A DNA stretch of 39,444 nucleotides from Planctomycetota bacterium (lineage in GTDB: Bacteria; Planctomycetota; Planctomycetia; Gemmatales; Gemmataceae). Below the pieces are notes generated by a model that had not been told where the DNA came from, made no database searches, and was given only the letters and a program-made list of their open reading frames with translations. The stretch lies in assembly GCA_021807595.1 (NCBI GenBank), contig JAKBCS010000037.1, positions 1 to 39,444 on the forward strand, in the 5' to 3' direction. The position numbers and the translations under genes were made by a program. Below are positions 1 through 13,679 of the stretch, piece by piece (positions within the stretch are counted from its first letter, which is position 1; every line of letters starts with the position of its first letter).

Positions 1-271
1 CCCGGCAGCTTACGCTGCCGGTTCGCCACTACCCGGCTGCTTACGCTGCCGGTTCGCCACTACCCGGCTGCTTACGCTGCCGGTTCGCCACTACCCGGCA
101 GATTACGCTGCCGGTGCCACTACCCGGCAGATTACGCTGCCGGTTCGCCACTACCCGGCTGCTTACGCTGCCGGTCGCCACTACCCGGCTGCTTACGCTG
201 CCGGTTCGCCACCACCCGGCTGCTTACGCTGCCGGTCGCCACTACCCGGCAGCTTACGCTGCCGGTTCGCC
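1..271. repeat. Tandem array of a ~31-bp palindromic repeat, nine units
   Basis: Nine head-to-tail units start at 1, 32, 63, 94, 123, 154, 184, 215 and 245; unit length is 31 bp with 29- and 30-bp variants that lack TC or T. Each unit holds an inverted repeat CCGGCAGC-TTAC-GCTGCCGG followed by TTCGCCACTAC. Some units carry CCGGCTGC or CCGGCAGA in the left arm, which breaks one or two stem pairs, while the right arm GCTGCCGG is invariant. There are no unique spacers, so this is not CRISPR. The array may continue beyond the left window edge. A solo copy lies at 29570-29593 on the other strand. Confidence 0.93.
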
Positions 272-293
272 TCGATCGCGGGAACAATACTCC

Positions 294-560
294 TTAGTTC
301 GCGCTGCCATGGTATGCCGATGAGCGTGTGGTCAGCACTTCGCCTTCATGGCTCATGCGGCATCGCAGCAAGTGCAAATCTTCGTCGATTTTCTCCAAGA
401 CAATGTCGGCATCGGCGATTTGTCCTTCTGCCAGATGTTGCTTCGCCTCGGCTAGACCCAGCTGAGCGATGGACAAGCGACGATCGACCATGTTCAGGAA
501 TGGAGACGACGACGGAACGGAGCCCTTGATATCGCGGATACGATCGGATAGTGCAACCAT
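294..560 (-). CDS. Small helical protein of unknown function
   Basis: An 88-residue frame starts at an ATG (558-560) with a purine-rich GAGAG about 8 nt upstream. The product is charged and looks largely alpha-helical, with an alanine/leucine/glutamate-rich middle (QLGLAEAKQHLAEGQIADAD) followed by a DEDLHLLRCR helix; this could be a short helical hairpin or TPR-like pair. No signal peptide or membrane span is visible. I do not recognise the family. It lies on the same strand as the kinase/PP2C/vWA unit and 276 bp downstream of it, so co-transcription is possible but not shown. Overlapping frames on both strands look like non-coding shadows. Confidence 0.5.
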   Translation of the reverse strand: MVALSDRIRDIKGSVPSSSPFLNMVDRRLSIAQLGLAEAKQHLAEGQIADADIVLEKIDEDLHLLRCRMSHEGEVLTTRSSAYHGSAN

Positions 561-836
561 AAGTCACTCTCGCAATGAGATACAGAGGATGCCGGAAGAC
601 AACGCACCGCCGCCCAGGCGGTCCATCCAAACGGATGGAGACTCCAGCGAAACACACAACCGTATGCGAGGAGTCATCCAAGAGGCTAAGTCAAGTCGTG
701 TGCGGGCAGTCGCCTTGTCGAGTTCGGCTTCCTTACCGAGGTGGCTTGGGATAGGGCCTGCGAGAATCCTTCTCATCTCCAGGCAAAGCGACTCCTCTTG
801 TACCCGAAAAGTGGGGTGCGATGCAAGAGAACTTTT

Positions 837-3800
837 TTACGGCTCGGTCATCTGCGGCACGAAGCCATCGTGTTTGTTTTGCCCTTTGATAAACACGTCG
901 AAATGATCCAACGGCAACGGCGCAAGAATCTCCTCGCTGGGTCGTTTGGCCACAAAGAAGCGCGGCTCGGCTTTCGTCCCGCGCGCGATTCGGACGGGGA
1001 TCACCCAATACGAATGCAGCGCCTTCATGTTGCGAGCCACCCATTTTTGGGGCGGCAACTGCTGGAAGCTCTCAAGGAGTTGTTGTTCCATCCAACGCAT
1101 CGCGCCATCGTCCACATCCAAGAGACGCTGGCGAGATAGGGCGGCTTTGGGAATCCTACGTTCGATCCCGTAGCCTTCGCGGATCGAGCGATCCAGTAGG
1201 CGCGAGGTGTCGTTATCCTCGCTGCCGAGCGCGAAAACGATCGGCACCACCGGATTCCGATGCGACCAACGAATCCAGTCCGGGACGGGATAGCCGCAAA
1301 GTTTCCAGCGCGATTCCATGCCGAACCAGAATGCCAGCAACACGCTCAGCTTCTCGGGCGGTTTGAGGACGATGCGACCGTTGGGCTGATCGACGCCGTT
1401 GTAACGCAATCCTTCCGATGCCAGCCACAACGAACCGAGCGTCGAGCCGAAACCCGCGCCGAACACGATCAAGTTGAAAGTATTTACGGGACTGTCCTTT
1501 TCGTCGTGGCGCAGATCGAGATACATGCGGGCGGCGGCGATGTCGTGGATGAGCCAGGGTAGGTATTCGGGAGGCAATCCGTTCCAATCCAGCTTGCTCG
1601 GATGGTCGTCGAGCGGTTTGTCTCGAACGAAGGAGGGCAGCAGCTTGGCGTTGACCGAGTAATCCCAGAACGCGCGCTCGACTTTTTGGCTGTCTCCGTG
1701 GCCGCGAAAGTCGAACGTCAGTACCGTGTGCCCTTCGTTTTGCAATGTCTCGGCTAGACGCTTCCATCCCGGCGTGGCGCGCGATCGGCCCAGATCGTGC
1801 AACATCAACACCGTCATCCCCTTTTTGCCCCTCCATCCGTGATAGAGCGTGGCGGCAAGCTCCATGTGGTCGATCGTGCGGAAGCGGACATTCCGTTGAA
1901 GGCCGCGCGGCCGGGTGATGTTCAAGGCGACGTCGCGCTCCCCGACCGTCTGTTTGCCGACGAGAAGGAGCAATTTGACCGTATACTCGCCCGGCTCGGT
2001 GTTTTTCGATGTGGCGACGATGACGTTTGCGAACGACAACTCGGGAGCGACGGTCGTCGGAGCGGCAGTCGCCCCTTCGGGGAGATTCGACAGAACCACC
2101 GTCGCCTCGGATCGATTTTGTCTTCTATCCAACAATACGCGCAACTCGCCTTGCTTGCCCGCCTCGACCGAAAGAGAATCGGCCATCTTCTCGTTGAGAC
2201 GAAGGCGCGGCGATTCTTCTGGCGTCGAAGGCGCAGGTTTAGCCTGAACGTGGAGCAGCAGCGCTTTGCTGTCTGCCACCACGTCGCCGACTTTCAACTG
2301 GATCTTGAGCGGGACCGGCTGCGGCTCCACCTCGTCGGCAACGGTCAGTTTTACGCTTGCAACATCGGGCGTGTCCGCGTTCATGGGTAAAGATTCTTGC
2401 CGTAGCTGAGGCGGCAGCTTCTCGAAATCGACGGACAGCGGTTCGCGGCAGGCATTGCGCTGAAGGGAGAAGGCGAACGTCTTCGAACTGCCGGCGGGAC
2501 AGACGATATTTTCTGGGGGTTGCAACAGGGGGCGAGGGGTCGGCAATACCGAAAGCTGAAACGCTTGCTCCGCGCGTTTTTCCTCTCCCTGCCACAGGGA
2601 GACATGAACCGTTCGCTGCGGAGGGGCGGCTCCGAGAGGGGCGATCAATCGCAGCGAGCAAGTTTCTTCATCCGAAGCCAACGATAGCACCGACGTTGCT
2701 GGAGCGTCCGGCGCTTTCACCTCGTCGGGCATTCCTTCGAGGCGAAGGATCAGGGGTTCGCGGCAATCGCGGCGATCGACGTGGAAAGCGATGGTCGTTT
2801 TGAATCCCGCGCGCAGGGTCACATCGTCGAGGTGCGATAGGCTCGGCAGACGCTCGGAAACGGTGGCGGATGCTGGCTTGACGGAGGACCATACCAATAC
2901 GTTGAGGACGATGAAACTGAGGAGGACGATTGCCCCCACAATAACAAGCGATACCGGACGCGAGAGCAGCGACAAAACGGGATCGGCACGAAGGGCGGCG
3001 GGCTCGCGCGGTTTTTCTTCCACCTCGGCCGGTGGTTGAGCGTCAAGCTCGATCTCGGCGGAACTGCGTCGGCGTGCGGCGATGGCGTTCGACGGCAGCG
3101 GTGGCGGCACGGATTTGAGCTGAATCGGTCGGGTCTCGGTTAGCGAGGCGGTTTGCACGGTCGGCTCGGCAACGAGGACGCCGGTGGAAACCGAAACCAT
3201 CTGCGCGGTCGCCGGCGCGAGGCGCGAACGTCTCGGTGCGGGCGATTCCCCACCGAGTAGCGCTTCGACTTGTATTTCCTCGCCGTCGGACAAGGGACGC
3301 ACGCCGCTTTCGTCCACCAACTCATCGAGCGCTGGCGCGACGAGTAGCGGGCCGCGGCTGGCCAAAAGCAGGTGGCCGATCAAATAGCGCGTGTCACGAT
3401 CTTTTAACTCCCACAATTCGCGCAACAGGCACGATTTGCTCGGTTCGCGGAAGTCCTCTTCGCGGAATAACAAATTCTCACCGTTGTCGTGCCGCTGCCA
3501 TAGATTCGTTCCGCCGACGCGCAAACAGCGCAGCGCCGAGTAAATCAGCAGATGGGCGAAGCGATCCATCTCACGGTCGTAGCCGCCCGCGCTCAAGCGT
3601 TGGGGATGTTGGTAATTGGGATGGCCGACCTCGCCGGACGGCACTTCGGCTAAAGCCGGGACGAACATGCCGTCGTAGTCGATAAGTTTGAGGGCCAGCG
3701 AACTGCTTTTGCTTCCAGGCACAAGCAAGACATTTCCGTGTTGCAAATCGCCGTGTGCCATGCCGGCGTCGCGCAACTCTTGCCCCAGTCGCAGCCACAA

Positions 3801-4217
3801 TTGTGCCAAGCGTTCGAGAACGACCGGCTTGTTCGAGTGTTCGCAGACGAATTCGTTGAGTCGAAACCCCTCGACCCAGCGCATTTTGACCAGGGGATAC
3901 CATTGGCCGTGAACGCGGATGCCTTCGTCGAGATAGTGGAACTCGACCATGAAGGCGCGTTGCGTTTGCCGCAGATGTTCGCTGATGGCTTGATAGCGAG
4001 GGCGCAATCCGGCCACCGGGCGCGTGAAGCACTTGATGGCCCAGCTCTGTCCGTCGGCTCCCTGAACCTGATAGACATCGGCGAAGTTTCCAGAGTGCGG
4101 GCGCGGCAAACCAAATAGATCGCCCATGGCCTGACCTTGGCGCAGATCGTCCTCGGAGAAACACAGCTGCGGGTTCTGAACCGCGGCGTTGTAATCCGTG
4201 GCGTGAGGCCAAGACAT
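837..4217 (-). CDS. Receptor-like protein kinase with Ig-like repeats and alpha/beta-hydrolase-like ectodomain
   Basis: A 1126-residue protein. The ATG at 4217 is chosen because AAGGAG lies 8 nt upstream; a start 11 codons earlier has no such site. Residues ~40-300 form a protein kinase-like domain: G-rich loop SGNFADVY, AIK lysine (K62), catalytic loop HGDLQHGN (155-162), and DYDG (180-183) in place of DFG. A proline-rich linker leads to one membrane span (~421-443). Three repeats (~460-790) then share an AG-x-T...CREPL...LP pattern and look Ig-like. The C-terminal part (~795-1090) looks like an alpha/beta hydrolase (LMLHDLGRSR, FDFRGHGDS), but the nucleophile elbow reads GAGFG, so the usual serine is glycine. 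It is last in a vWA-PP2C-kinase unit, 61 bp after the phosphatase. I infer a membrane sensor kinase whose outer domain binds rather than hydrolyses a ligand. Kinase activity is probable, not certain. Confidence 0.85.
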   Translation of the reverse strand: MSWPHATDYNAAVQNPQLCFSEDDLRQGQAMGDLFGLPRPHSGNFADVYQVQGADGQSWAIKCFTRPVAGLRPRYQAISEHLRQTQRAFMVEFHYLDEGIRVHGQWYPLVKMRWVEGFRLNEFVCEHSNKPVVLERLAQLWLRLGQELRDAGMAHGDLQHGNVLLVPGSKSSSLALKLIDYDGMFVPALAEVPSGEVGHPNYQHPQRLSAGGYDREMDRFAHLLIYSALRCLRVGGTNLWQRHDNGENLLFREEDFREPSKSCLLRELWELKDRDTRYLIGHLLLASRGPLLVAPALDELVDESGVRPLSDGEEIQVEALLGGESPAPRRSRLAPATAQMVSVSTGVLVAEPTVQTASLTETRPIQLKSVPPPLPSNAIAARRRSSAEIELDAQPPAEVEEKPREPAALRADPVLSLLSRPVSLVIVGAIVLLSFIVLNVLVWSSVKPASATVSERLPSLSHLDDVTLRAGFKTTIAFHVDRRDCREPLILRLEGMPDEVKAPDAPATSVLSLASDEETCSLRLIAPLGAAPPQRTVHVSLWQGEEKRAEQAFQLSVLPTPRPLLQPPENIVCPAGSSKTFAFSLQRNACREPLSVDFEKLPPQLRQESLPMNADTPDVASVKLTVADEVEPQPVPLKIQLKVGDVVADSKALLLHVQAKPAPSTPEESPRLRLNEKMADSLSVEAGKQGELRVLLDRRQNRSEATVVLSNLPEGATAAPTTVAPELSFANVIVATSKNTEPGEYTVKLLLLVGKQTVGERDVALNITRPRGLQRNVRFRTIDHMELAATLYHGWRGKKGMTVLMLHDLGRSRATPGWKRLAETLQNEGHTVLTFDFRGHGDSQKVERAFWDYSVNAKLLPSFVRDKPLDDHPSKLDWNGLPPEYLPWLIHDIAAARMYLDLRHDEKDSPVNTFNLIVFGAGFGSTLGSLWLASEGLRYNGVDQPNGRIVLKPPEKLSVLLAFWFGMESRWKLCGYPVPDWIRWSHRNPVVPIVFALGSEDNDTSRLLDRSIREGYGIERRIPKAALSRQRLLDVDDGAMRWMEQQLLESFQQLPPQKWVARNMKALHSYWVIPVRIARGTKAEPRFFVAKRPSEEILAPLPLDHFDVFIKGQNKHDGFVPQMTEP

Positions 4218-4256
4218 CGCGCACTCCTTGTGGAAACCAGCCGGCAGCAAAATCCA

Positions 4257-4290
4257 CTGCCGACTACCGACCTACCGACTACTGACTAAT
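4257..4290. repeat. Short direct repeats of CTACCGAC type between PP2C and kinase genes
   Basis: Imperfect short units (CCGACTACCGAC, CTACCGAC, TACTGACTA) sit in the 61-bp gap between the phosphatase and kinase genes and run into the phosphatase stop codon. Similar low-complexity runs, such as ACTCAGCACTCAGCAC near 28680, occur elsewhere in the window. Function unknown. Confidence 0.5.
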
Positions 4291-5082
4291 AGCCACGAGC
4301 GTTACGTCGTCGTTGCGCAGTCGGCGTTCGTTGCGCAGTCCCTCTATCCATGCGGCGAAAGCGTGTTGCGCCTCGTCGTCGCTGCTGCCCGGATAGATCA
4401 GCGGTTCCAACGACAGCCACGGCTTCGATCCTGCTTCGGTCTGAAGGAGGAACCATTGGGCGAGGGCGTCGGTCATCAACCAGAATCGGTCGCCCGGTTG
4501 ACATTCGCCGTACTGTTGGTGACCGTTTTTGTGCGGCACTTCGATCGGCGAGGTGCGCGAGCCAACGAGCCAGGGCGCGTTGCTGAAATCGGCGGCGTGC
4601 AGAATCGGGAAAGTCCGAATCAGCTCGCCTCGACGCACCTGAAACAAACAGCTGTCGCCGACCGCCAGGGCATACCAACTATTATCTTCAAAGACTAAGC
4701 CGAGGAAAGTGGCAAACGCGCCTTGCGTCAATCCGGGTTCGAGATACCACGGCACATCGGCGCTTCGTTGTCCTCCGTCCTCGGATGAATCTCTCGAAGA
4801 GAGGAATGCCGAATACGGAGAACAGATGGCCGACAACCATCGTTCTTGAAGGGACGGCAGCCAATTCGCCCAACGGGGGAGCGGATCGTCTTGCCGCACG
4901 AACTCCTCCACGAGCAGTTTCGCCCACAAGGCGGCATAGGGACTCTCGGCGGCTCCGTCGGCGAGAGCGAAGCGGCCGCGTTCGGCGTCCACGGCCAAGG
5001 CATCCTGGCATTCGTCCAGGTTGTAGCCTTGACGAGGCAAGCGGAAGGCGCGAGAGCCGAGGCCGAGGCCGGACAACGCCAT
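4279..5082 (-). CDS. PP2C-like Ser/Thr protein phosphatase
   Basis: A 267-residue protein with the ordered metal-binding motifs of the PPM/PP2C family in divergent form: DECQDA (23-28, the usual NEDA region), FALADGAAE (DG at 42-43), a GAFATFLG strand (GxT region), LAVGDSCLF (GDS) and LMTDALAQWF (TDA where SDG is common). No membrane span or signal peptide is visible, so it should act in the cytoplasm. It begins three bases after the stop of the vWA gene and ends 61 bp before the kinase start, which points to one mRNA and probably translational coupling. Inferred role: removal of phosphates placed by the neighbouring kinase, or on its targets. The loss of the canonical SDG aspartate-glycine pair could alter metal binding. 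Confidence 0.85.
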   Translation of the reverse strand: MALSGLGLGSRAFRLPRQGYNLDECQDALAVDAERGRFALADGAAESPYAALWAKLLVEEFVRQDDPLPRWANWLPSLQERWLSAICSPYSAFLSSRDSSEDGGQRSADVPWYLEPGLTQGAFATFLGLVFEDNSWYALAVGDSCLFQVRRGELIRTFPILHAADFSNAPWLVGSRTSPIEVPHKNGHQQYGECQPGDRFWLMTDALAQWFLLQTEAGSKPWLSLEPLIYPGSSDDEAQHAFAAWIEGLRNERRLRNDDVTLVAISQ

Positions 5083-5085
5083 GAC

Positions 5086-5928
5086 TCACCGTAGGTTCTT
5101 GGGATCGACTCGCGTACCGATGTCCAGAAAGCGGACCACCGATGCCAAATCGGCGTTGAAGACGAAGCCGCGCGAGTCGGCCGTCACCGTCAAACCCGAC
5201 TGACGCGCCGACTGAAGCATTGCCGGCGGCAGCAGGCTCGACATGCGGAACAAGCGGCGCGCGTAATCGTCGGGCAAACCTTCCTCGTCATCGGGAAACT
5301 CGATGGCTTGCGACGCATGAGACGAGATGTGGCCGTTAAACAATAAGACCGCCCCGTCCTCGCTGGCCAAATCGCCCAAGTTCTTCGCCATCTCCTCGGG
5401 ATTGCCGTCCGTCGCTTCTCCATCGGAAAGATTGACCACCAGAGGAGGATAGCAAGCGGGATGTTCGAGCAGGAAGCCGGAGACGATTTGAATGGCTTGT
5501 TCCAGCGCTTTGCACATGGGCGTTTTCCCGTCGCCGGCCGATTCAAACCACAACGGCGACTTAACGATCTGCTCGACCTGCCCGCCGCGCCCATCGTCCA
5601 CGAGATTGGTGCGCTGTTCGACGCGCAACGGATTGCGCGCCAACTCGCCGATAGGAACCAGGACGCGCTCGGCCAGCCCTCCGCCCAGCGCGGGCCGAAT
5701 CTGACGGCCGTAGCCGATCACCCCGACGTGAAAGCGGTCGAGGACAGTCTGTCCCCACACGCAGCGCAATACCAAGGTATACAGCAGGCGATTGAGCGAG
5801 TCGGCCACAACGTCGGCCTTCTTATTGCTCGAACTGCCGCCGATCGGTCCCAACATGGATTTCGATTGATCGACGAGAAAGAGGAAACAGGTAGGGTTCG
5901 AGCGGCTGATTTCCGCAGTGTAGGGCAT
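5086..5928 (-). CDS. von Willebrand factor A domain protein (TerY-like)
   Basis: A 280-residue vWA protein. The ATG at 5928 is preferred (GGAAAGG upstream, and the vWA fold begins at once); a 60-residue longer frame carries an arginine-rich non-conserved extension. The MIDAS metal site looks complete: DQSKS (20-24), the threonine in GDGKTPMCKAL, and the aspartate in VNLSDGEATDG. No transmembrane helix is present, unlike BatA-type vWA proteins, and the compact cytoplasmic form recalls TerY. It is first in the unit with PP2C (3-bp gap) and the large kinase. TerY-P triads combine exactly these three families. A scaffold or switch role that brings phosphatase and kinase to a client is inferred. 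Confidence 0.87.
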   Translation of the reverse strand: MPYTAEISRSNPTCFLFLVDQSKSMLGPIGGSSSNKKADVVADSLNRLLYTLVLRCVWGQTVLDRFHVGVIGYGRQIRPALGGGLAERVLVPIGELARNPLRVEQRTNLVDDGRGGQVEQIVKSPLWFESAGDGKTPMCKALEQAIQIVSGFLLEHPACYPPLVVNLSDGEATDGNPEEMAKNLGDLASEDGAVLLFNGHISSHASQAIEFPDDEEGLPDDYARRLFRMSSLLPPAMLQSARQSGLTVTADSRGFVFNADLASVVRFLDIGTRVDPKNLR

Positions 5929-6706
5929 AGATGTCGCCTTTCCAGCGGGGTGCAGAGGCACCTGACGCAAACGAAACAAGGACGATGAGAGATTATACCT
6001 TTTCTCCACCCGCTGTCGCAAGCAATTTGCGCCGTCGATTTTGATTCCCACCGAGCGCCGACGACGAGGGGCGGTCGAGATCGGACGCGCGGAATGGGTG
6101 TGGCACAATCGAGAATGCCTCGCGCAACAGGAACCTTTAGGGATATTTGAACTCGGAAGGAATCGAGCTTGCCGTCACTATGGCAGTCGTATACACTAAA
6201 TGTTAGTTGTTTCTCATTCCTGGTGCCTTCCTCATCCCCAGAACGGTTCTCTGGATCTGGCGGTCATCAAACGTGCGGAGGAGGACGTTCCCTACGCATG
6301 CTCGCAAGTTCGGTTCGTCGGAAGGAATAGCGCCTCCATGTCAACAAGCTCAACCTGACGGCCACGACTCGTTGGACCGTTTGGATTCGGTGCGTTCCGT
6401 TGAGACTATCCTCTCGTTCGTGTTCCGGCATAAGCTGCGCGGAAGCCGCTCGCCCCGACAGAGAGGATTCATCGTGTTAGATATGTCGTGGCGCATCGGA
6501 GGACAGAACGAGAGCCATCCCGGAGTAGGTGCCTGCTGTTCCGGCCGCGTTGGCCTCGGCTTGTCTCACCCGCGCGAGGCCAGTCGTCGATGTTCGACGA
6601 ACTCGCTTGCAGGTGCGAAGGGAGTGGGAGACCGGATAACCGTTTTGGGCGTCTGGGGACAAATAGTCCCAGCATTCAATTGGCCTTTTTCGTGGAGTGG
6701 TAAGTT
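5929..6706. other. Long intergenic region between divergent genes
   Basis: This 778-bp stretch separates the minus-strand vWA unit from the plus-strand RRM gene. A 167-residue frame on the plus strand (6207-6710) has no recognisable domain, an arginine/serine-rich out-of-frame look, and overlaps the RRM start. A shorter frame beginning at 6200 contains the more coding-like stretch LAVIKRAEEDVPYACSQVRF before it stops, so a decayed gene remnant is possible. The region must hold promoters for both directions and could give the RRM mRNA a long leader, but I see no strong promoter pair. Confidence 0.45.
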
Positions 6707-6988
6707 ATGAGTAAGAAACTGTATGTCGGCAACCTGGGATACAGCGTGACGGATGGCGAACTGGAGAAGATGTTCCTGGCTCACGGGACGGTGCAATCGG
6801 CCCAGGTAATCATGGACCGAGACACTGGCCGCTCCAAGGGGTTCGGTTTCGTGGAAATGGCCAGCGATCAAGAGGCTCAGTCCGCCATCGCCGCCCTCAA
6901 CGGCAAGGACTCCAACGGCCGCGCCCTCACGGTCAACGAAGCAAAACCCCGTGAGCCGGGCGGACGCGGCGGGCGAAGCTATCGTTAG
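6707..6988 (+). CDS. RRM-domain RNA-binding protein
   Basis: A 93-residue protein that is one RNA recognition motif plus a short glycine/arginine tail (GGRGGRSYR). The RNP2 motif is KLYVGNLG (residues 4-11) and RNP1 is SKGFGFVEM (~44-52), both with the aromatic residues that stack on RNA bases. The size and layout match the small bacterial RRM proteins best studied in cyanobacteria (Rbp family), many of which are cold-induced and bind single-stranded RNA. GGAG lies about 9 nt upstream of the ATG. The next plus-strand genes encode an ASCH-domain protein and a fatty-acid desaturase. An RRM protein beside a desaturase would suit a cold-response set, though no regulatory site proves this. Confidence 0.95.
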   Translation: MSKKLYVGNLGYSVTDGELEKMFLAHGTVQSAQVIMDRDTGRSKGFGFVEMASDQEAQSAIAALNGKDSNGRALTVNEAKPREPGGRGGRSYR

Positions 6989-7032
6989 GAGTTGGCTCGA
7001 CATTACTTCCCCAACGAGAAGTTAGGCAGGGT

Positions 7033-7092
7033 GGGTCAAAGCGTAGCGAGACCCACCATCCTCACTCGACGGGTCTCGCTACGCTCCGACCC
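7033..7092. repeat. 22-bp inverted repeat downstream of the RRM gene
   Basis: Arms at 7033-7054 (GGGTCAAAGCGTAGCGAGACCC) in shortened terms read GGGTC...AGCGTAGCGAGACCC and pair with 7071-7092 at 20 of 22 positions; the loop is 16 nt. Each arm is itself bounded by GGGTC/GACCC. No T-run follows, so this is not a classical intrinsic terminator, but it could stop or stabilise the RRM transcript. It looks like a dispersed intergenic palindrome. Confidence 0.8.
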
Positions 7093-7161
7093 AGATTATC
7101 GGACTCGGCATTCGGTCGGTTGATCCGTGCCAAATGCTCACCTGGGAGAAGGAGAATCGAA

Positions 7162-7548
7162 ATGTACGCCATCAGCATCGAAAAGCCTCATGCGGCTGCG
7201 ATCCTCGCACGGTTGCGGCCTTGCCCGTGCCATTTCTGGCACACGGATCACCGGGGACTGCTACTGATACATGCCCGCACGCCGAAAGGGGCGAAGGGCG
7301 TCTCCGAGTCCGACCACGGCTCCAGAGGGAACGCCCTCGTGGGGGTCGTAGAATTGAGGGACTGCTTCGCTTCCGCGAAAACGGGCGATGATCCCGATGA
7401 AGTCGAGTATCACTGGCTGTTGACCAATCCCCGTACCTTCATCACACCTCTCCCATACGCGGGGCGGTTGGGGCTTTTTTTGGTTTCAGATCATGTCGTG
7501 GCTGCCGCCTTGTGCCAGCTGGGAAAACCGAGACGGCTACGGGGATAA
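7162..7548 (+). CDS. ASCH-domain (PUA-like) protein
   Basis: A 128-residue protein starting at the ATG at 7162, with AAGGAG seven bases upstream; an earlier in-frame start adds 14 residues and lacks a site. The pattern fits the ASCH branch of the PUA fold: an opening strand YAISIEKPHAAAIL, then HRGLLLIHAR, the core strand ALVGVVELRDC, and the late HWLLTNPRTFITPLPYAGRLGLF. ASCH proteins are thought to bind RNA or modified nucleosides; some act as cytidine-acetyl hydrolases or coactivator-like factors. The usual lysine-rich KxVExR stretch after the first helix is altered here (ARLRPCPCHFW), so the substrate is uncertain. It sits between the RRM gene and the desaturase gene. Confidence 0.78.
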   Translation: MYAISIEKPHAAAILARLRPCPCHFWHTDHRGLLLIHARTPKGAKGVSESDHGSRGNALVGVVELRDCFASAKTGDDPDEVEYHWLLTNPRTFITPLPYAGRLGLFLVSDHVVAAALCQLGKPRRLRG

Positions 7549-7675
7549 CTATTTTCTGGAGGACGCGGTGATTGGTCCGAACAGGAATAGCGATCCTGCC
7601 CTTCCCTTTCCACTCGGCGGAGAGGGCGAATCCGAGAGTAGCGCTGTACGGTTAGGTTAGTCGAGGAGAATCGCC

Positions 7676-8812
7676 ATGATGGGGCAAGGGATTCAATCGA
7701 GCCAAATGGCTCCGCCCGTTCGACGAGAAGAAGCAAACCGAAGGCCGAAATTCATCGGCAGCAGCGATTTTCAGGTGGAACTCCGCAGGAGGATGGACGA
7801 ATTCTTTCAACGCACCGGGCGCAGGCGGCGCGGCTGCTGGCAGATGTCCGTGAAAATGGCGACACTCTTCGCTCTCTTCGCGGCTTCCTATGTCCTGCTT
7901 GTGTTCGTCGCTCAGACCTGGTGGCAGGCTATTCCCCCCGCCATTCTGCTCGGCTTGACCACTGCGGCCATCGGTTTTAACGTCCAGCACGACGGCGGAC
8001 ATCAGGCGTATTCCAATCGATCCTGGATCAACAAGCTAACGGCGTTGACGATGGATTTGATCGGCGGAAGTTCGTACGTTTGGCACTGGAAGCACAATGT
8101 CTTCCACCACACCTACGTCAACATCACCGGACACGACTCCGACATCGACCTGGGCATCCTCGGCCGGCTGACACCGCATCAGAAACACTATTGGTTCCAC
8201 CGCTGGCAACACTTTTATCTCTGGCCCCTCTATGGCTTACTGACCATCAATTGGCACCTGGTAGGCGATTTTCACAACGTCGTCACCGGGCAAATCGGCA
8301 CCTGTCGTTTTCCGCGACCGCGCGGATGGGATTTGCTTCTTTTCCTCTCCGGAAAGATGATCTTCTTCACTCTCGTACTCGGTATTCCTCTGTTGGTTCA
8401 CCGCGCGTGGGTGGTGTTGCTGTTCTTCGGTGCCGTCGAGGCACTTTTGGGGATGACCCTCAGCATCGTCTTTCAGCTGGCGCACGCCGTCGAGGAGGCG
8501 GATTTCCCGATGGCCAACCGGGACACCGGCCGGATGGAACACTCTTGGGCGGTGCATCAGGTCGAGACGACGGTGGACTTCGCTCGTGGGAGCCGCTCGA
8601 TGGCGTGGCTGCTCGGCGGACTAAACTTCCAAATCGAACACCACCTGTTCCCGAACATTTGCCACGTCAACTACCCGGCGATGTCGAAAGTGGTCGAAGC
8701 GACCTGCCGGGAGTACGGGGTGCGATACAAGGAGCATTCGTCCATCCTCGCCGGTCTCGCATCGCACTACCGTTGGCTGCGACGTATGGGAATGCCGAAC
8801 ACCACCGCATGA
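7676..8812 (+). CDS. Membrane fatty-acid desaturase (acyl-lipid / linoleoyl-CoA type)
   Basis: A 378-residue integral membrane enzyme with the three histidine boxes that hold the di-iron centre: HDGGH in NVQHDGGHQAY, HNVFHH in WKHNVFHHTYVN, and QIEHH in LNFQIEHHLFPN. The Q-x-x-HH form of the third box is typical of front-end (delta-6-like) and related acyl-lipid desaturases. Hydrophobic spans lie at ~60-100 and ~220-265. There is no N-terminal cytochrome b5 domain, so an external electron donor such as ferredoxin is expected. GAGGAG lies 7-8 nt before the ATG. The reaction would be O2-dependent introduction of a double bond into membrane acyl chains, as expected for adjusting fluidity. Regiospecificity cannot be read from the sequence. 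Confidence 0.94.
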   Translation: MMGQGIQSSQMAPPVRREEANRRPKFIGSSDFQVELRRRMDEFFQRTGRRRRGCWQMSVKMATLFALFAASYVLLVFVAQTWWQAIPPAILLGLTTAAIGFNVQHDGGHQAYSNRSWINKLTALTMDLIGGSSYVWHWKHNVFHHTYVNITGHDSDIDLGILGRLTPHQKHYWFHRWQHFYLWPLYGLLTINWHLVGDFHNVVTGQIGTCRFPRPRGWDLLLFLSGKMIFFTLVLGIPLLVHRAWVVLLFFGAVEALLGMTLSIVFQLAHAVEEADFPMANRDTGRMEHSWAVHQVETTVDFARGSRSMAWLLGGLNFQIEHHLFPNICHVNYPAMSKVVEATCREYGVRYKEHSSILAGLASHYRWLRRMGMPNTTA

Positions 8813-8874
8813 AGAGAGCGAGTTCTCGGCAACAAGCGCATAGGGGCGGGACGGCAAGACGCGCCTCGAAATCC

Positions 8875-8903
8875 ACGAGCGTATCGGCAAGGGATACGCT
8901 CGT
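8875..8903 (+). terminator. Hairpin after desaturase gene, possible terminator
   Basis: A perfect 11-bp stem, ACGAGCGTATC with GATACGCTCGT, encloses a 7-nt loop (8886-8892) 63 bp after the desaturase stop codon. A T7 run follows, but only about 30 bp later (near 8931), so termination would not be the standard hairpin-U type. It separates the desaturase gene from the Hsp90-like gene. Confidence 0.55.
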
Positions 8904-9027
8904 CGGTATTCAGACGCGGGCGGTTTCTCAATTTTTTTGCCTACGCTCCTCGACGGCGCTCGCGTCTCTTGGTAAGTTTGGGTGATTCTTCGTTTCGACA
9001 AGAGTTACCGAGATCGAGGGGCGGCCC

Positions 9028-10881
9028 ATGGATTACAAGTTTCAGATCAACCTTCGCGGCATCATCGAGTTGTTGTCCAACCATTTGTACAGCGGGCCGG
9101 AAGTCTTTCTGCGAGAACTGCTGCAAAACGGCGTCGATGCCATCCGCGCGCGCCAGAATCTCGACCCGGATCATCGCGGCGAGATCACTATGGAAGTGCT
9201 GGGGGCGCGCGGCGGGAAAGCGCCGACGTTGGTATTCACCGACAACGGCATCGGCTTGAACGAAGACGAGATTCATCGCTTTTTGGCCACCATCGGCCAA
9301 AGCTCGAAGAACGCTGAGTTCTGGGAACGACCGAGCGATTTCATCGGCCAATTCGGCATCGGTCTGTTGTCGTGCTTCGTGGTGAGCGAGGAAATCGTCG
9401 TCATCACGCGCTCGGCGGCCTCGCCCCAACCCTCTTCACCTGAAGGGGCAGACAGCAGGGCGAGGGGGCTTGAATGGCGCGGTAAACCGAACGGAACCTA
9501 CACCATCAAGGTTATCGAGCGCGATCTGGAACCCGGTACGCAGGTGTACTTGACCTGCAAGAAGGGTTGCGAGGAACATTTCGAGGTCGAACGGCTCGTC
9601 GAGCGGGCAACGCACTTCGGGGGACTGTTGCCTTATCCGATCCGTCTGATCTCCGGCAACGGTTCGCGTCCCATCAACGCCGAGGGACCGCCGTGGCGAC
9701 GGCGCGGCGGCAGCGAGAAAGCGCGCCGAGCTGCGCTCTTGGAGTATGGCCGCAAGACTTTCGACGTAGATTTCTTCGACGCCATCCCATTGCGCTCGTC
9801 GGTGGGCGAAGTGGAAGGCGTCGCTTTCGTGCTGCCTTTCTCGCCGAGTTTGGCCACCAAACGCACCCATCGCGTGTATCTCAAACACATGCTGCTGTCG
9901 GAGAACGCCGAGGATCTGGTGCCGGATTGGGCCTTCTTCGTTAAATGCGTCGTCAACGCCAACGATCTGCGGCCCACTGCCTCGCGCGAATCGTTTTACG
10001 AGGACGACAAACTCGCCTCCACCCGCGAAGCACTCGGACAATGTCTGCGCGACTACCTCTTCGATCTGGCCAAGAATCATCCGGAACGCTTGCAGCAGTT
10101 CATCGCTCTGCACCATTTGTCGATCAAGGCTCTCGCCGTTTGCGACGACGAGTTTTATCGTCTCTTTATCGACTGGATGCCGTTCGAGACGACGCTCGGC
10201 GATATGACGCTGGGCGAATATCGCAAAGATAACCCGGTGATCCGCTACGTCGCGCACCTCGATCAATTTCGGCAGATTGCCCGCGTGGCCGCCGCGCAAG
10301 ATTTGTGCGTCCTCAACGGTGCTTATACCTATAACGCCGAGCTGCTCGAAAAATTCTCCGAGGTGTTCCCCGACGAGCAAGTGGAAGAAATCGATCCGGC
10401 CGGGTTGACGCAGAGCTTCGAGGATCTGGCGCTGGAGGAGCGCGAGGAGATGTTCGCGCTCACCAAGACGGCCGATCTCGTGCTGCAACCTTACAAGTGT
10501 TCGGCGGAGATCAAGAAGTTTCTGCCCCAAGAGTTACCGGCTCTTTTCAGCACGAACGCCGACGCTGGGTTCCTACGCTCCGCCGAACAATCGCGCGAGA
10601 TTTGCGACGCGCTGTGGTCGTCGGTGTTGGATAATTTGACGGCGAAACATGCGCGCGATGTCTACGCGCAATTGTGCTTCAACTATCGCAATCCCTTGGT
10701 TCGCAAGCTGGCACAGATCCGCGATAGGACTTTGTTGCGGCGGTCCATCGAGATGCTGTACGTTCAAGCGCTGCTTCTGGGACACCATCCACTCAGCGCG
10801 CGGGAGATGGCTTTGTTGAACGAGGGACTGCTCGGCCTGATCGAATGGGGACTCGACGCAGGACAGCGAGGTGAGGCATGA
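9028..10881 (+). CDS. Hsp90-family (HtpG-like) chaperone, divergent
   Basis: A 617-residue protein with an N-terminal GHKL ATPase domain: FLRELLQNGVDAIR (E30 and N34 are the catalytic/Mg pair), TDNGIGL (71-77), the lid-side ATIGQSS (88-93) and GQFGIGLLSCF (107-117). The middle and C-terminal parts keep an Hsp90-like layout (RESFYEDD, arginine near the ATP site), but similarity to HtpG falls toward the C terminus. Residues ~131-149 are a hydrophilic insertion coded by a DNA palindrome (see the repeat at 9419). The start ATG has GAGGGG about 10 nt upstream. The stop overlaps the next gene by ATGA, so the two are translationally coupled. The expected role is ATP-driven chaperoning. The partner gene suggests a dedicated co-chaperone or client. 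Confidence 0.88.
   Translation: MDYKFQINLRGIIELLSNHLYSGPEVFLRELLQNGVDAIRARQNLDPDHRGEITMEVLGARGGKAPTLVFTDNGIGLNEDEIHRFLATIGQSSKNAEFWERPSDFIGQFGIGLLSCFVVSEEIVVITRSAASPQPSSPEGADSRARGLEWRGKPNGTYTIKVIERDLEPGTQVYLTCKKGCEEHFEVERLVERATHFGGLLPYPIRLISGNGSRPINAEGPPWRRRGGSEKARRAALLEYGRKTFDVDFFDAIPLRSSVGEVEGVAFVLPFSPSLATKRTHRVYLKHMLLSENAEDLVPDWAFFVKCVVNANDLRPTASRESFYEDDKLASTREALGQCLRDYLFDLAKNHPERLQQFIALHHLSIKALAVCDDEFYRLFIDWMPFETTLGDMTLGEYRKDNPVIRYVAHLDQFRQIARVAAAQDLCVLNGAYTYNAELLEKFSEVFPDEQVEEIDPAGLTQSFEDLALEEREEMFALTKTADLVLQPYKCSAEIKKFLPQELPALFSTNADAGFLRSAEQSREICDALWSSVLDNLTAKHARDVYAQLCFNYRNPLVRKLAQIRDRTLLRRSIEMLYVQALLLGHHPLSAREMALLNEGLLGLIEWGLDAGQRGEA
9419..9465. repeat. Palindromic element inside the Hsp90-like coding sequence
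   Basis: CCTCGCCC (9419-9426) pairs exactly with GGGCGAGG (9458-9465) around a 31-nt middle that includes CACCTGAAGGGGC. It is read in frame as a proline/serine/arginine-rich insert (SPQPSSPEGADSRARG) between ATPase-domain strands. The pattern, CTCGCCCCAACCCTC...TGAAGGGG...GCGAGG, is like intergenic palindromes common in such genomes; a partial relative (CCCCTCTCCCCTGAGTAC...GCGAGGGC) lies near 32190 between two genes. Confidence 0.7.
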
Positions 10882-12008
10882 ATATCGATTATCGAGATGC
10901 GGCTGTAGACCTCTTGGAGCAAGCGGAAGATTTGCCGGAGTGCCCGTCGAAACTGGCGCTCTTGGAAGAAGCGGTCCGCTTGGCCGACACCCACCGAGAC
11001 ACGGAGTTGGGCGACGAGGCGCGCGAGGCTTTAATCCAGACGGCGACGTTTACCGGCTATCCGGAGAAGGCGCTGGTGGCGTTCTCGTGGCGCTTGGCGC
11101 AGGCGGATCGCGCGCCGGAGCAGTTCCCCGAATCGCGGTTGATGTGGGCGTACAAGTGGATCGCCGGTTCGCTGGCGAGCTTCCCCCAAATCTCGCGGCA
11201 GCAGATCGACGATGCGTTCGAGGACATGGCGGTGCGCTTTCGCCGTTCGGGATACGGGATGCGGTCGGTGTACAAAATCCGTTGGGAAGCCGCCCTCGAC
11301 ATGAGAGAACCGGATGAAGCGCGTCGCTATTATCGCCTGTGGGACAAGACGCCGCGCGATGCCAACAGCGATTGCAACGCCTGCGAGCAAGACTGTCGCG
11401 TTTTCTATCACGTCTATTTCGGCAAGCTCGAAAAGGCGCTACAACTGGCCGAGCCGATCCTGAGAGGTTCCATGTCGTGCGGCACGGTCCCCGAACGAAC
11501 CTTCGGTCGCGTCTTGCTGCCGCTCCTCCGTTTGGGAAGGGTCGATGAGGCCGCCGAATACTACCGCAAAGGCTATCGTCTGGCGAGCGGAAATCGAGAG
11601 TTTCTGGATTGCCTCGGCGACTATTTGATTTTTCTCGTGCTGACCGGCAATCTATCGCAAGGCGTCAAACTGTTTGAAAGACATCTCGGATGGGCCGTGG
11701 AGACGATGGATCTGTATGCGCGCTGGCGATTTTATGCAGCGGTGAGCTACTTTTTGCCCCTGCTCGCGCAGAGCGGTCGGACGGAGTTGAAACTGCGTTT
11801 GATTGAAGAAACGCCCGGCTACCGTGCGGACGGACGCTATGAAACAGCGCGATTGGCGTCGCTGTTCGACTCCCTGTGCCGCGAGCTTGCCGCGCAGTTC
11901 GATGCGCGAAACGGCAACGACGGCTTCGCTCGGACATTGGCCAAGCAGAAACGCCTGAAGCGTTGGGCGACGCCCTATCCGCTTCCGCGCGGTCGCAAGA
12001 CTAATTGA
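10878..12008 (+). CDS. Helical-repeat (TPR-like) protein coupled to Hsp90-like gene
   Basis: A 376-residue, almost wholly alpha-helical protein with no signal peptide or membrane span. Weak TPR-like helical pairs can be seen, for example LGRVDEAAEYYRKGYRLA and FGKLEKALQLAEPIL, with similar spacing through the middle. A central cysteine cluster, CNACEQDC, is notable and could bind metal or form disulfides. The ATG overlaps the stop of the Hsp90-like gene by four bases (ATGA). TPR proteins are the classic Hsp90 co-chaperones in eukaryotes; bacterial Hsp90s usually lack a dedicated one, so the coupling is of interest. The chaperone here does not end in MEEVD, so any contact must use another surface. 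Function is inferred from context only. It ends 13 bp from the convergent kinase gene. Confidence 0.78.
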   Translation: MNIDYRDAAVDLLEQAEDLPECPSKLALLEEAVRLADTHRDTELGDEAREALIQTATFTGYPEKALVAFSWRLAQADRAPEQFPESRLMWAYKWIAGSLASFPQISRQQIDDAFEDMAVRFRRSGYGMRSVYKIRWEAALDMREPDEARRYYRLWDKTPRDANSDCNACEQDCRVFYHVYFGKLEKALQLAEPILRGSMSCGTVPERTFGRVLLPLLRLGRVDEAAEYYRKGYRLASGNREFLDCLGDYLIFLVLTGNLSQGVKLFERHLGWAVETMDLYARWRFYAAVSYFLPLLAQSGRTELKLRLIEETPGYRADGRYETARLASLFDSLCRELAAQFDARNGNDGFARTLAKQKRLKRWATPYPLPRGRKTN

Positions 12009-12021
12009 ATGAGAAACGATC

Positions 12022-13326
12022 TTAAAAGAAGAAAAAAGCGATGATGGCGGTGAGCAAGAACAACGCGATCAAGAACCCCCATTTCATCAGTTCCATCGCT
12101 GTCGAGGGGGCAAGGTCGTGTTCGCCGGTTTTCGATTGAAGTGATACGACCGGCGGTCCCGATTTTGCCGGCGTCGATTGCTTCACGCGGGGATGCGTTG
12201 CCACGGTGTCGTCGGAAGGCGACGATGCCGGGCGAGGCGAGGGGGCTTTCGGCACCGTCAACGGCGCGGCCTCGACGACGAGATCGCGGAACTCGGCATG
12301 ACCGCGCAACGCCTCGAACGGCCCGGCTTTTGTGCGCGCCGCGCGTACGTTGCTGGCATCGCCGAGCAATCCGTCCTTGAGCGAGCGCCGAACCGCCGAG
12401 ACGGTGCCTTTCACGGTATGCGAAGTGCCCAATTCATCCTTATAAACCAGATACCACAAGTCCTGTTGCGGCGTGCTGCTGTCCACGGTCGGTAGACGGC
12501 GCGTACTGTGCCCGGTCAAATCTTCCACGAATTCGCGGCACGAGGTGGGACGCTTCTCCGGATCGGCGCTCATGGCCCGACGGATCGCCCACTCGACGCG
12601 CTCCGAAAGATCGGGCACCAACTGGCGCGGCGGAGTCAAATCGTTCTGAATCTTCTTCATCCAAGCGTCGAGCGGGCCGGTCGAGCGAAACGGTAATTCG
12701 CCCGTTACCATCTGATATAAGGTCGCGCCCAAACTGTAGATGTCGCAGCGTATGTCGGCGTTCTTGGCGTTTCGGAACTGCTCCGGTGCCATGAAGTGTG
12801 GCGTGCCCAATCCGCGGCCGGTCTTAGTCAGATTGAGATCCGTCTCCGTCTCCTTGACCAAACCGAGGTCGGCCAATTTGGCGATGCCGTCCGGCGTCAC
12901 CAGAATGTTATCCGGCTTCACGTCGCGGTGGATCAAATTCTGCTTGTGGGCGCGGTGCAGCCCTTGAGCCACCTGAGCGATGATGCGAATGGCTTCCGAT
13001 TCGGACATGCGGCCCTGGCGTTCCAGCTTTTGTCCCAGCGATTCGCCTTCGACGAACTCCATGACCAGATACGGCATGTTGCCGTTGTCGCTGTAGTCGA
13101 GCGCGCGAACGATGTTCGGATGATCGAGCCGACTGGCGGCGCGAAACTCTTGCTCGAAGCGTTTGAGCAAAACGGGATTCTGCGCCATGTGTGGAGGCAT
13201 GATTTTGATGGCGACGATCGAACCCGATTCGCGGTGCCTTCCGCGATAGATCGCGCCCATGCCTCCCTCGGCAACCTTTTCGAGGAGATCGTAATTGCCG
13301 ACGGACTTTGCGGTGTCGATCCCCAT
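12022..13326 (-). CDS. Tail-anchored Ser/Thr protein kinase
   Basis: A Hanks-type kinase. The ATG at 13326 follows GGGGGAA; longer starts at 13347, 13353 or a GTG at 13416 are possible. The kinase domain occupies roughly residues 10-280: glycine loop AEGGMGAIYRG, AIKIM lysine, catalytic HRDVKPDN, DLG in place of DFG (LADLGLVKE), GTPHFMAPEQ and CDIYSLG. It is followed by a ~60-residue module (LWYLVYKDELGTSHTVKGT...GPFEALRGHAEFRDLV) that seems to be an accessory domain, a proline/serine-rich linker, and a C-terminal hydrophobic segment (KWGFLIALFLLTAIIAFFFF) ending at the stop. The membrane is therefore reached by a tail anchor with no outside domain, unlike PASTA kinases. It is convergent to the Hsp90/TPR pair. 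Signal and targets are unknown. Confidence 0.93.
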   Translation of the reverse strand: MGIDTAKSVGNYDLLEKVAEGGMGAIYRGRHRESGSIVAIKIMPPHMAQNPVLLKRFEQEFRAASRLDHPNIVRALDYSDNGNMPYLVMEFVEGESLGQKLERQGRMSESEAIRIIAQVAQGLHRAHKQNLIHRDVKPDNILVTPDGIAKLADLGLVKETETDLNLTKTGRGLGTPHFMAPEQFRNAKNADIRCDIYSLGATLYQMVTGELPFRSTGPLDAWMKKIQNDLTPPRQLVPDLSERVEWAIRRAMSADPEKRPTSCREFVEDLTGHSTRRLPTVDSSTPQQDLWYLVYKDELGTSHTVKGTVSAVRRSLKDGLLGDASNVRAARTKAGPFEALRGHAEFRDLVVEAAPLTVPKAPSPRPASSPSDDTVATHPRVKQSTPAKSGPPVVSLQSKTGEHDLAPSTAMELMKWGFLIALFLLTAIIAFFFF

Positions 13327-13679
13327 CGCTTTCGGTTCCCCCTGCATCGACATGGGTCGGACCAATCGGCCCGACTTGACCTCCGCATCGAGCCTGTCGG
13401 CCCAAGCGAGATTCACACCGAAGTAATTCTATCTTGCTTCGGGATTGGACGCATGGCAAATTTTGACAATTCTTCGGCTTGCGCGATTTTCTCGCCTCGA
13501 ACGATTGCATCGGAGACGCCGACAAATCCGCCGTCTCCCCTCACGAAACGCGGGCGATTCGGGCAATTTAGGCAAATTCCTCTAGCATCGCCTCGCGGAA
13601 TCGGCCACAATAAAAACGACCCACGACGACAGGTTCCTTTCCTTTCGCCGTGGACGGAGAGCCGAACGCGGAGAACACC
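13327..13679. other. Divergent intergenic region between kinase and coiled-coil cluster
   Basis: This region separates the minus-strand kinase from the plus-strand membrane protein cluster and must carry both promoters. The first ~90 bp could be kinase coding sequence if the upstream GTG is used. A TTGACA occurs near 13463 on the plus strand, but no convincing -10 box stands 16-18 bp after it. No repeat or RNA gene was seen. Confidence 0.4.

Follow-up and report, generated by a model that had tools for sequence, protein, structure and literature searches.

TerY-P is an anti-phage system in which a TerY-type vWA protein, a PP2C phosphatase and a kinase form a triad that acts against T7-like phages (Gao et al. 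2020, via PMC7699616). It is also active in Pseudomonas aeruginosa (PMC10889362), and a version with an OB-fold kinase is cited in PMC11090510. Here we describe a locus of this family in a 39,444-nucleotide stretch of DNA from a planctomycete of the Gemmataceae (the window; the whole of contig JAKBCS010000037.1, assembly GCA_021807595.1), the kinase of which has a predicted membrane span and a large predicted ectodomain. We read the locus as a TerY-P variant, an envelope-sensing reversible phospho-signalling module with a single-pass receptor kinase, and give this reading a probability of roughly 0.6.

With TerY-P with STK-OB (Gao et al. 2020; models PDLC02222, PDLC02223 and PDLC02224) the window locus shares the protein families, the neighbourhood and the kinase domain, and its TerY and PP2C match at full length; the window kinase, however, has a span and a large ectodomain in the place that the kinase model gives to its C-terminal half. 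The type with a kinase-zinc ribbon (Anantharaman et al. 2012; CoCoNuT-associated, PMC11090510) also has the operon of vWA, PP2C and kinase, whereas for the window kinase a membrane receptor is predicted, and none of the partners described for that type was seen here. Actinobacterial kinases fused to transmembrane helices beside PP2C and vWA were mentioned by Kaur et al. (2020; PMC7159879): in these modules the kinase is sometimes fused to such helices, and PP2C and a standalone vWA adjoin it, as here, but they are linked to GAP1-N2 GTPases, and the available part of that paper describes no large exchanged ectodomains. Finally, planctomycete single-pass Ser/Thr kinases with a cytoplasmic kinase, one transmembrane segment and periplasmic WD40, TPR or sulfatase-modifying domains, the WD40/TPR domains being predicted with DeepTMHMM (PMC11032199), are alike in anatomy; they are defined by PF00069, the cut-off of which the window kinase misses, and the text available to us describes no linkage to TerY or PP2C.

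A TerY-P triad with conserved catalytic residues

The locus lies on the minus strand, to which all coordinates of its features refer, and consists of three packed genes in the order TerY-type vWA, PP2C, kinase. The TerY-type protein (P0002, 5086..5928, 280 aa) has a complete metal ion-dependent adhesion site (MIDAS) and matches the PADLOC TerY model PDLC02224 over the whole protein (E 3.1e-95). Its stop codon at 5086 is separated by 3 bp from the ATG at 5082 of the PP2C-family phosphatase (P0003, 4279..5082, 267 aa; PF13672 E 2e-7, PADLOC PP2C PDLC02222 E 5.4e-28), and 61 bp lie between the end of the PP2C stop at 4279 and the ATG at 4217 of the single-pass receptor-like Ser/Thr kinase (P0001, 837..4217, 1126 aa from this ATG; PADLOC STK_OB PDLC02223 E 5.5e-70). 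A kinase start at an in-frame TTG at 4250, from which the P0001 residues are numbered here, would shorten the 61-bp gap. These coordinates and the strand agree with the tight packing and the gaps reported in the preliminary description of the locus. Since all three proteins match the TerY, PP2C and STK_OB components of PADLOC, the triad itself is of a known kind; that description had likened it to TerY-P. A homologue of the kinase, 91% identical, is found in a genome of the same genus (G003).

To compare catalytic residues we used alignments of 15 kinases, 15 TerY and 10 PP2C proteins, the window's own included. No exception was found to the TerY MIDAS residues, so the complete MIDAS seen earlier (D20-x-S22-x-S24...T136...D169) is invariant in the alignment; nor was there any exception to the acidic residues of the PP2C metal site (D27, D42-G43, D205, D258-D259) or to the H-x-D-x4-N and DYDG motifs of the kinase, the lysine of which is retained in at least 90% of the aligned kinases. 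The kinase domain (3273..4217; P0001 aa 12-326), probably cytoplasmic, is supported by alignment, AlphaFold2 and Foldseek. Its model, a single chain like all the AlphaFold models used here, has a mean predicted local distance difference test score (pLDDT) of 91 and a eukaryotic-type protein kinase fold (Foldseek E about 1e-8). A search of solved structures by sequence gave no match for TerY, one marginal match for PP2C (RsbX) and distant protein kinases for the kinase.

The STK_OB match covers P0001 aa 12-318 only, corresponding to positions 1-300 of the 562 of the PADLOC profile, and the C-terminal OB half (positions 301-562) is unmatched in the window kinase; because the match ends there, we file the triad as a variant and not as the Gao type itself. 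The match stops near 268-301 in the other relatives tested, with one Bacteroidetes-type kinase extending to 423. Pfam by itself recognises the triad poorly. The kinase scored 20 bits against a Pkinase cut-off of 31.7 and thus missed the threshold, and 8 of 15 relatives likewise miss an E-value equivalent derived from that cut-off. The window TerY falls below the cut-off of Pfam VWA, and its PP2C above that of PF13672.

Linkage and co-occurrence of the three genes

In a sample of 59 genomes around the window's own, that one included, the kinase family was present in 23, TerY in 18 and PP2C in 17; all genomes with PP2C contain TerY, and all with TerY contain the kinase (Fisher p 6e-14 for TerY/PP2C, 5e-11 for TerY/kinase). 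A scan across species genomes turned up 77 loci, and both TerY and PP2C lay within the fetched span at 20 of 40 Gemmatales-type loci and at 30 of 36 others, the linkage of the three genes extending across phyla. The TerY-PP2C-kinase order recurs in many relatives, and the gene order claimed at the outset is therefore conserved. Together with the co-occurrence of TerY and PP2C, this argues that the arrangement is not due to chance. It is accordingly very improbable that the kinase is an ordinary planctomycete receptor kinase that adjoins TerY and PP2C fortuitously: Gemmataceae do have many single-pass Ser/Thr kinases that carry WD40, TPR and sulfatase-modifying domains outside (PMC11032199), but the window kinase belongs to the STK_OB family, with its 20 bits against the Pkinase cut-off of 31.7, and the linkage across phyla and the co-occurrence statistics disfavour this explanation. 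Plasmid-borne copies were only two, both on cyanobacterial plasmids and 31-38% identical. One triad kinase, 51% identical to the window's, lies on a contig filed under a Methanoregulaceae archaeon (L129, JACTVF010000348.1), an assignment that is probably a binning error.

Membrane anatomy of the kinase

The kinase domain is followed by a Pro/Ala/Glu-rich juxtamembrane linker (2949..3272), presumably on the cytoplasmic side, and by the single predicted membrane span of the protein (P0001 aa ~435-460), which includes the transmembrane segment LVIVGAIVLLSFIVLNVLV (2892..2948; mean hydropathy 3.03 in a 19-residue window). On controls, the hydropathy criterion picked out 2 of 128 kinase domains, 0 of 57 PP2C and 1 of 63 TerY stretches. 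The prediction of a span after the kinase domain extends to 42 of 46 Gemmatales-type kinases, most of which have a large ectodomain as well, and to 28 of 38 kinases outside Gemmatales, in a sample of relatives drawn with a Gemmatales profile; the view that the kinases of such triads are usually soluble thus fails for the kinases of this branch.

The membrane-proximal part of the ectodomain (1914..2855) comprises three Ig-like beta-sandwich domains, with strands at residues 5-104, 110-204 and 227-314 of an AlphaFold2 model (m4c439c884e4e; mean pLDDT 85) built from a 15-sequence alignment. Foldseek matched the ectodomain to the Ig tandems of titin, Dscam and PTPdelta, with low whole-model TM (template modelling) scores. 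No internal sequence repeats were found in this part by self-BLAST, and in the model its repetition is only structural. The proposed anatomy of a membrane receptor, with one span, Ig-like repeats and a large predicted ectodomain, is thus borne out by the predictions. The Ig-like part is absent from the same-genus orthologues in G001 and G002, which have a low-complexity linker in its place.

The distal part (870..1913) has an alpha/beta-hydrolase fold that lacks the catalytic nucleophile. VIA-align superimposed it on feruloyl/cinnamoyl esterases with Z 22-24 and a root-mean-square deviation of 2.0-2.5 over ~215 residues, so the hydrolase-like domain described earlier holds as a fold. Its catalytic side does not: the nucleophile-elbow position after strand 5 (1446..1460) reads G-A-G-F-G instead of G-x-S-x-G, and none of 15 hydrolase-fold sequences (the window kinase, five related kinases and nine stand-alone paralogues) has Ser in the nucleophile column, where G, Q, E, D, T or C stand instead. 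A catalytic hydrolase ectodomain was ruled out on these grounds, for the stand-alone paralogues as well. With no nucleophile, the domain is hydrolase-like in fold and offers no evidence for enzyme activity; most likely it serves binding and not catalysis. Stand-alone proteins of this fold, ~400 aa long (L098, L099, L100, L056-L061), occur in most of the Gemmataceae-like genomes searched. Their nucleophile position is variable (G, E, D, C, T), and several start with a signal-peptide-like segment.

Exchange of the ectodomain

On the same kinase, Gemmatales carry by Pfam WD40 propellers, FGE-sulfatase with NPCBM, a 3-keto-disaccharide hydrolase, DUF1349, C-type lectin, laminin-G or PA14 domains, besides the hydrolase fold seen in the window kinase; outside Gemmatales, Pfam found TPR and PEGA-WD40. 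The kinase-domain tree requires at least 10 changes of ectodomain class, or 14 if 'none' counts as a class, and there are well-supported sister pairs with two different classes. Two triads of the window's own genus (G001:C147 and G003:C117) are 78% identical in the kinase, 86% in TerY and 69% in PP2C, and unrelated in sequence after the membrane span, a comparison confined to the first 253 aa of the G001 ectodomain because the G001 contig ends inside it. Gemmatales triads, then, have retained their inside machinery through repeated swaps of the ectodomain.

This turnover bears on the idea that the span is a mere anchor, with an adhesive or scaffold ectodomain and a kinase controlled from inside by TerY in response to metal or stress. 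In its favour, 5 Gemmatales-type kinases and 10 others are tail-anchored and lack an ectodomain, no ligand is known for the pseudo-hydrolase and WD40 parts, the MIDAS residues are retained, and control from inside is the proposal for classical TerY-P. A mere anchor, however, would not need large and diverse ectodomains that are repeatedly swapped while the kinase is kept, and we consider this explanation unlikely.

Numbers of kinase, TerY and PP2C genes

In most genomes the kinases are at least as numerous as TerY, and TerY at least as numerous as PP2C; kinase/TerY/PP2C counts are 4/2/1 in G026, 3/2/1 in G029 and 3/1/1 in G010. On the planctomycete contig JACRIH010000486.1 (24 kb; L109, L119, L117), a single TerY and a single PP2C are accompanied by six kinases that all run in one direction and the C-terminal parts of which are WD40, FGE, FGE plus WD40 or unassigned, with a span predicted in five. 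In the G001 and G002 orthologues of the window triad the kinase follows TerY directly, with no PP2C between, and the sole PP2C of this family is elsewhere in the genome, in G002 beside a TerY remnant. The simplest reading of these arrangements would be that one shared phosphatase works in trans, on a count limited by contig breaks. The module was earlier credited with its own eraser: a PP2C does stand at the window locus, but as these two same-genus orthologues keep theirs elsewhere, a local eraser is not obligatory.

The window's genome has a second TerY-PP2C-kinase triad (L062, G000:C20:69866-72165). Its kinase shows a large internal deletion relative to the G003 homologue (aa 228 joined to aa 1102) and a frame change near the end, and the window triad may therefore be the only intact one in its genome.

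Genomic context and the anti-phage alternative

Window positions 227-6057 align at 91% to the triad contig of G003, the alignment being limited to this stretch, and positions 6678-11997 align at 90% to a different G003 contig. Synteny between these species, ~90% identical, thus breaks at 6057-6678, upstream of the triad (G003:C78 versus G003:C48). Either the triad has been relocated, so that its surroundings differ between these close species, or one of the contigs was misjoined. The 107 neighbouring open reading frames (ORFs) of 18 relatives resemble ordinary chromosomal genes: judged by their commonest families and with no matched background set, they bear no defence-island signature; apart from one SNF2 helicase, the PADLOC matches listed among them are generic kinases, and the ter genes (TerC/TerD) are absent from the 25 commonest of their 134 Pfam families.

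The locus might instead serve primarily in anti-phage defence like TerY-P, in which case the receptor would sense infection at the envelope, the kinase would block the phage and PP2C would reset the system. It is homologous to a family with tested anti-phage activity (PMC7699616, PMC10889362), its distribution is patchy (TerY in 18 of 59 genomes), its sensors are exchanged fast, the context of the triad differs between two close species, and the kinase-phosphatase module KKP (PMC11341870) is a precedent for such logic in defence with a kinase and a PP2C. These points are set against the lack of a defence-island signature in the 107 ORFs by their commonest families, the missing OB half of the PADLOC kinase model and the multiple divergent receptors of several genomes, which general sensing fits too. 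On balance we regard a primary role in defence as doubtful, if conceivable.

Downstream of the kinase, an 88-aa ORF (MVALSDRIRD..., 294..560, minus strand) is kept in two same-genus genomes, with tblastn identities of 90% to G003 and of 60% between G003 and G002 over 48-49 aa, and is possibly a fourth gene of the locus. GC-rich hairpin-like repeat units of ~30 bp each (CCGGCAGCTTACGCTGCCGGTTCGCCACTA) occupy window positions 1-270; as the window is a whole contig (G000:C260), this contig ends at that repeat. On the other side of the triad the window encodes a small protein resembling RRM RNA-binding proteins (6707-6988, plus strand, start MSKKLYVGNLGYSVTDGELEKMF), an operon-like pair (9028-12008) of an HSP90-family protein (NF010683, E 8e-232) and a TPR-like protein with a 4-bp overlap, and an ordinary Pkinase protein (12022-13416, minus strand; E 8e-52), which differs from the STK_OB-type triad kinase.

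Discussion

Our reading of the locus as an envelope-sensing module rests on the composition of the triad, the conservation of its catalytic residues, the linkage and co-occurrence of its genes, the predicted span, the turnover of the ectodomain and the absence of the hydrolase nucleophile. From these we infer its orientation, ligand sensing, the phosphorylation and dephosphorylation of common targets and the coupling role of TerY. The Ig-like/pseudo-hydrolase ectodomain would read a ligand or the state of the envelope outside, and the cytoplasmic Ser/Thr kinase would change its activity in response. By way of its MIDAS, TerY would bind the kinase or a phosphorylated partner and so couple the kinase to downstream targets, and PP2C would undo the phosphorylation. 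Since the inside machinery is retained and the outside part exchanged, different receptors may feed the same output, in some genomes via a common TerY and PP2C.

PpkA/PppA, the threonine phosphorylation system of type VI secretion, likewise has a membrane kinase, a PP2C and a vWA domain and responds to the envelope; the vWA of PpkA sits outside, and the PpkA kinase family differs from that of the triad kinase. It works in the way we propose for the window triad and differs from it by the kinase family and by a vWA that is fused to the kinase (PMC1262709).

Several observations weigh against the reading of the locus as a receptor module. Five of the 59 genomes have divergent kinases and neither TerY nor PP2C, and several kinases with a membrane span have neither gene in the fetched span (13 of 40 loci, some of them on short contigs). 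PP2C is missing next to TerY and kinase in the two same-genus orthologues discussed above. The topology is based on hydropathy, with a weak bias of flanking charge (Lys/Arg 3 inside versus 2 outside).

The preliminary description knew of no system of this form. The triad belongs to a described anti-phage family, and actinobacterial membrane kinases beside PP2C and vWA (PMC7159879) and planctomycete WD40/TPR kinases (PMC11032199) are already known. The combination of TerY-P with a receptor kinase of swapped ectodomain, and of receptor arrays on one TerY/PP2C pair, was not found described in the literature searched, the founding TerY-P paper (Anantharaman et al. 2012) lying outside it.

More tentatively, TerY-P of Gemmatales and some other bacteria may be a modular receptor system, with many fast-swapping receptor kinases on one TerY/PP2C core. 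It could, with the same reserve, be likened in function to the plant receptor-like kinases whose pathways meet at shared regulators, and may have been missed in part by surveys of Pfam kinases. If the exchangeable ectodomain of the kinase is the sensor, the question of what triggers TerY-P becomes testable by domain swaps. Our reading, if true, would add to the known receptor kinases a system that brings along a phosphatase and a vWA partner of its own, that occurs beyond Planctomycetota too and that lies partly under the Pfam kinase threshold of the published kinase counts.

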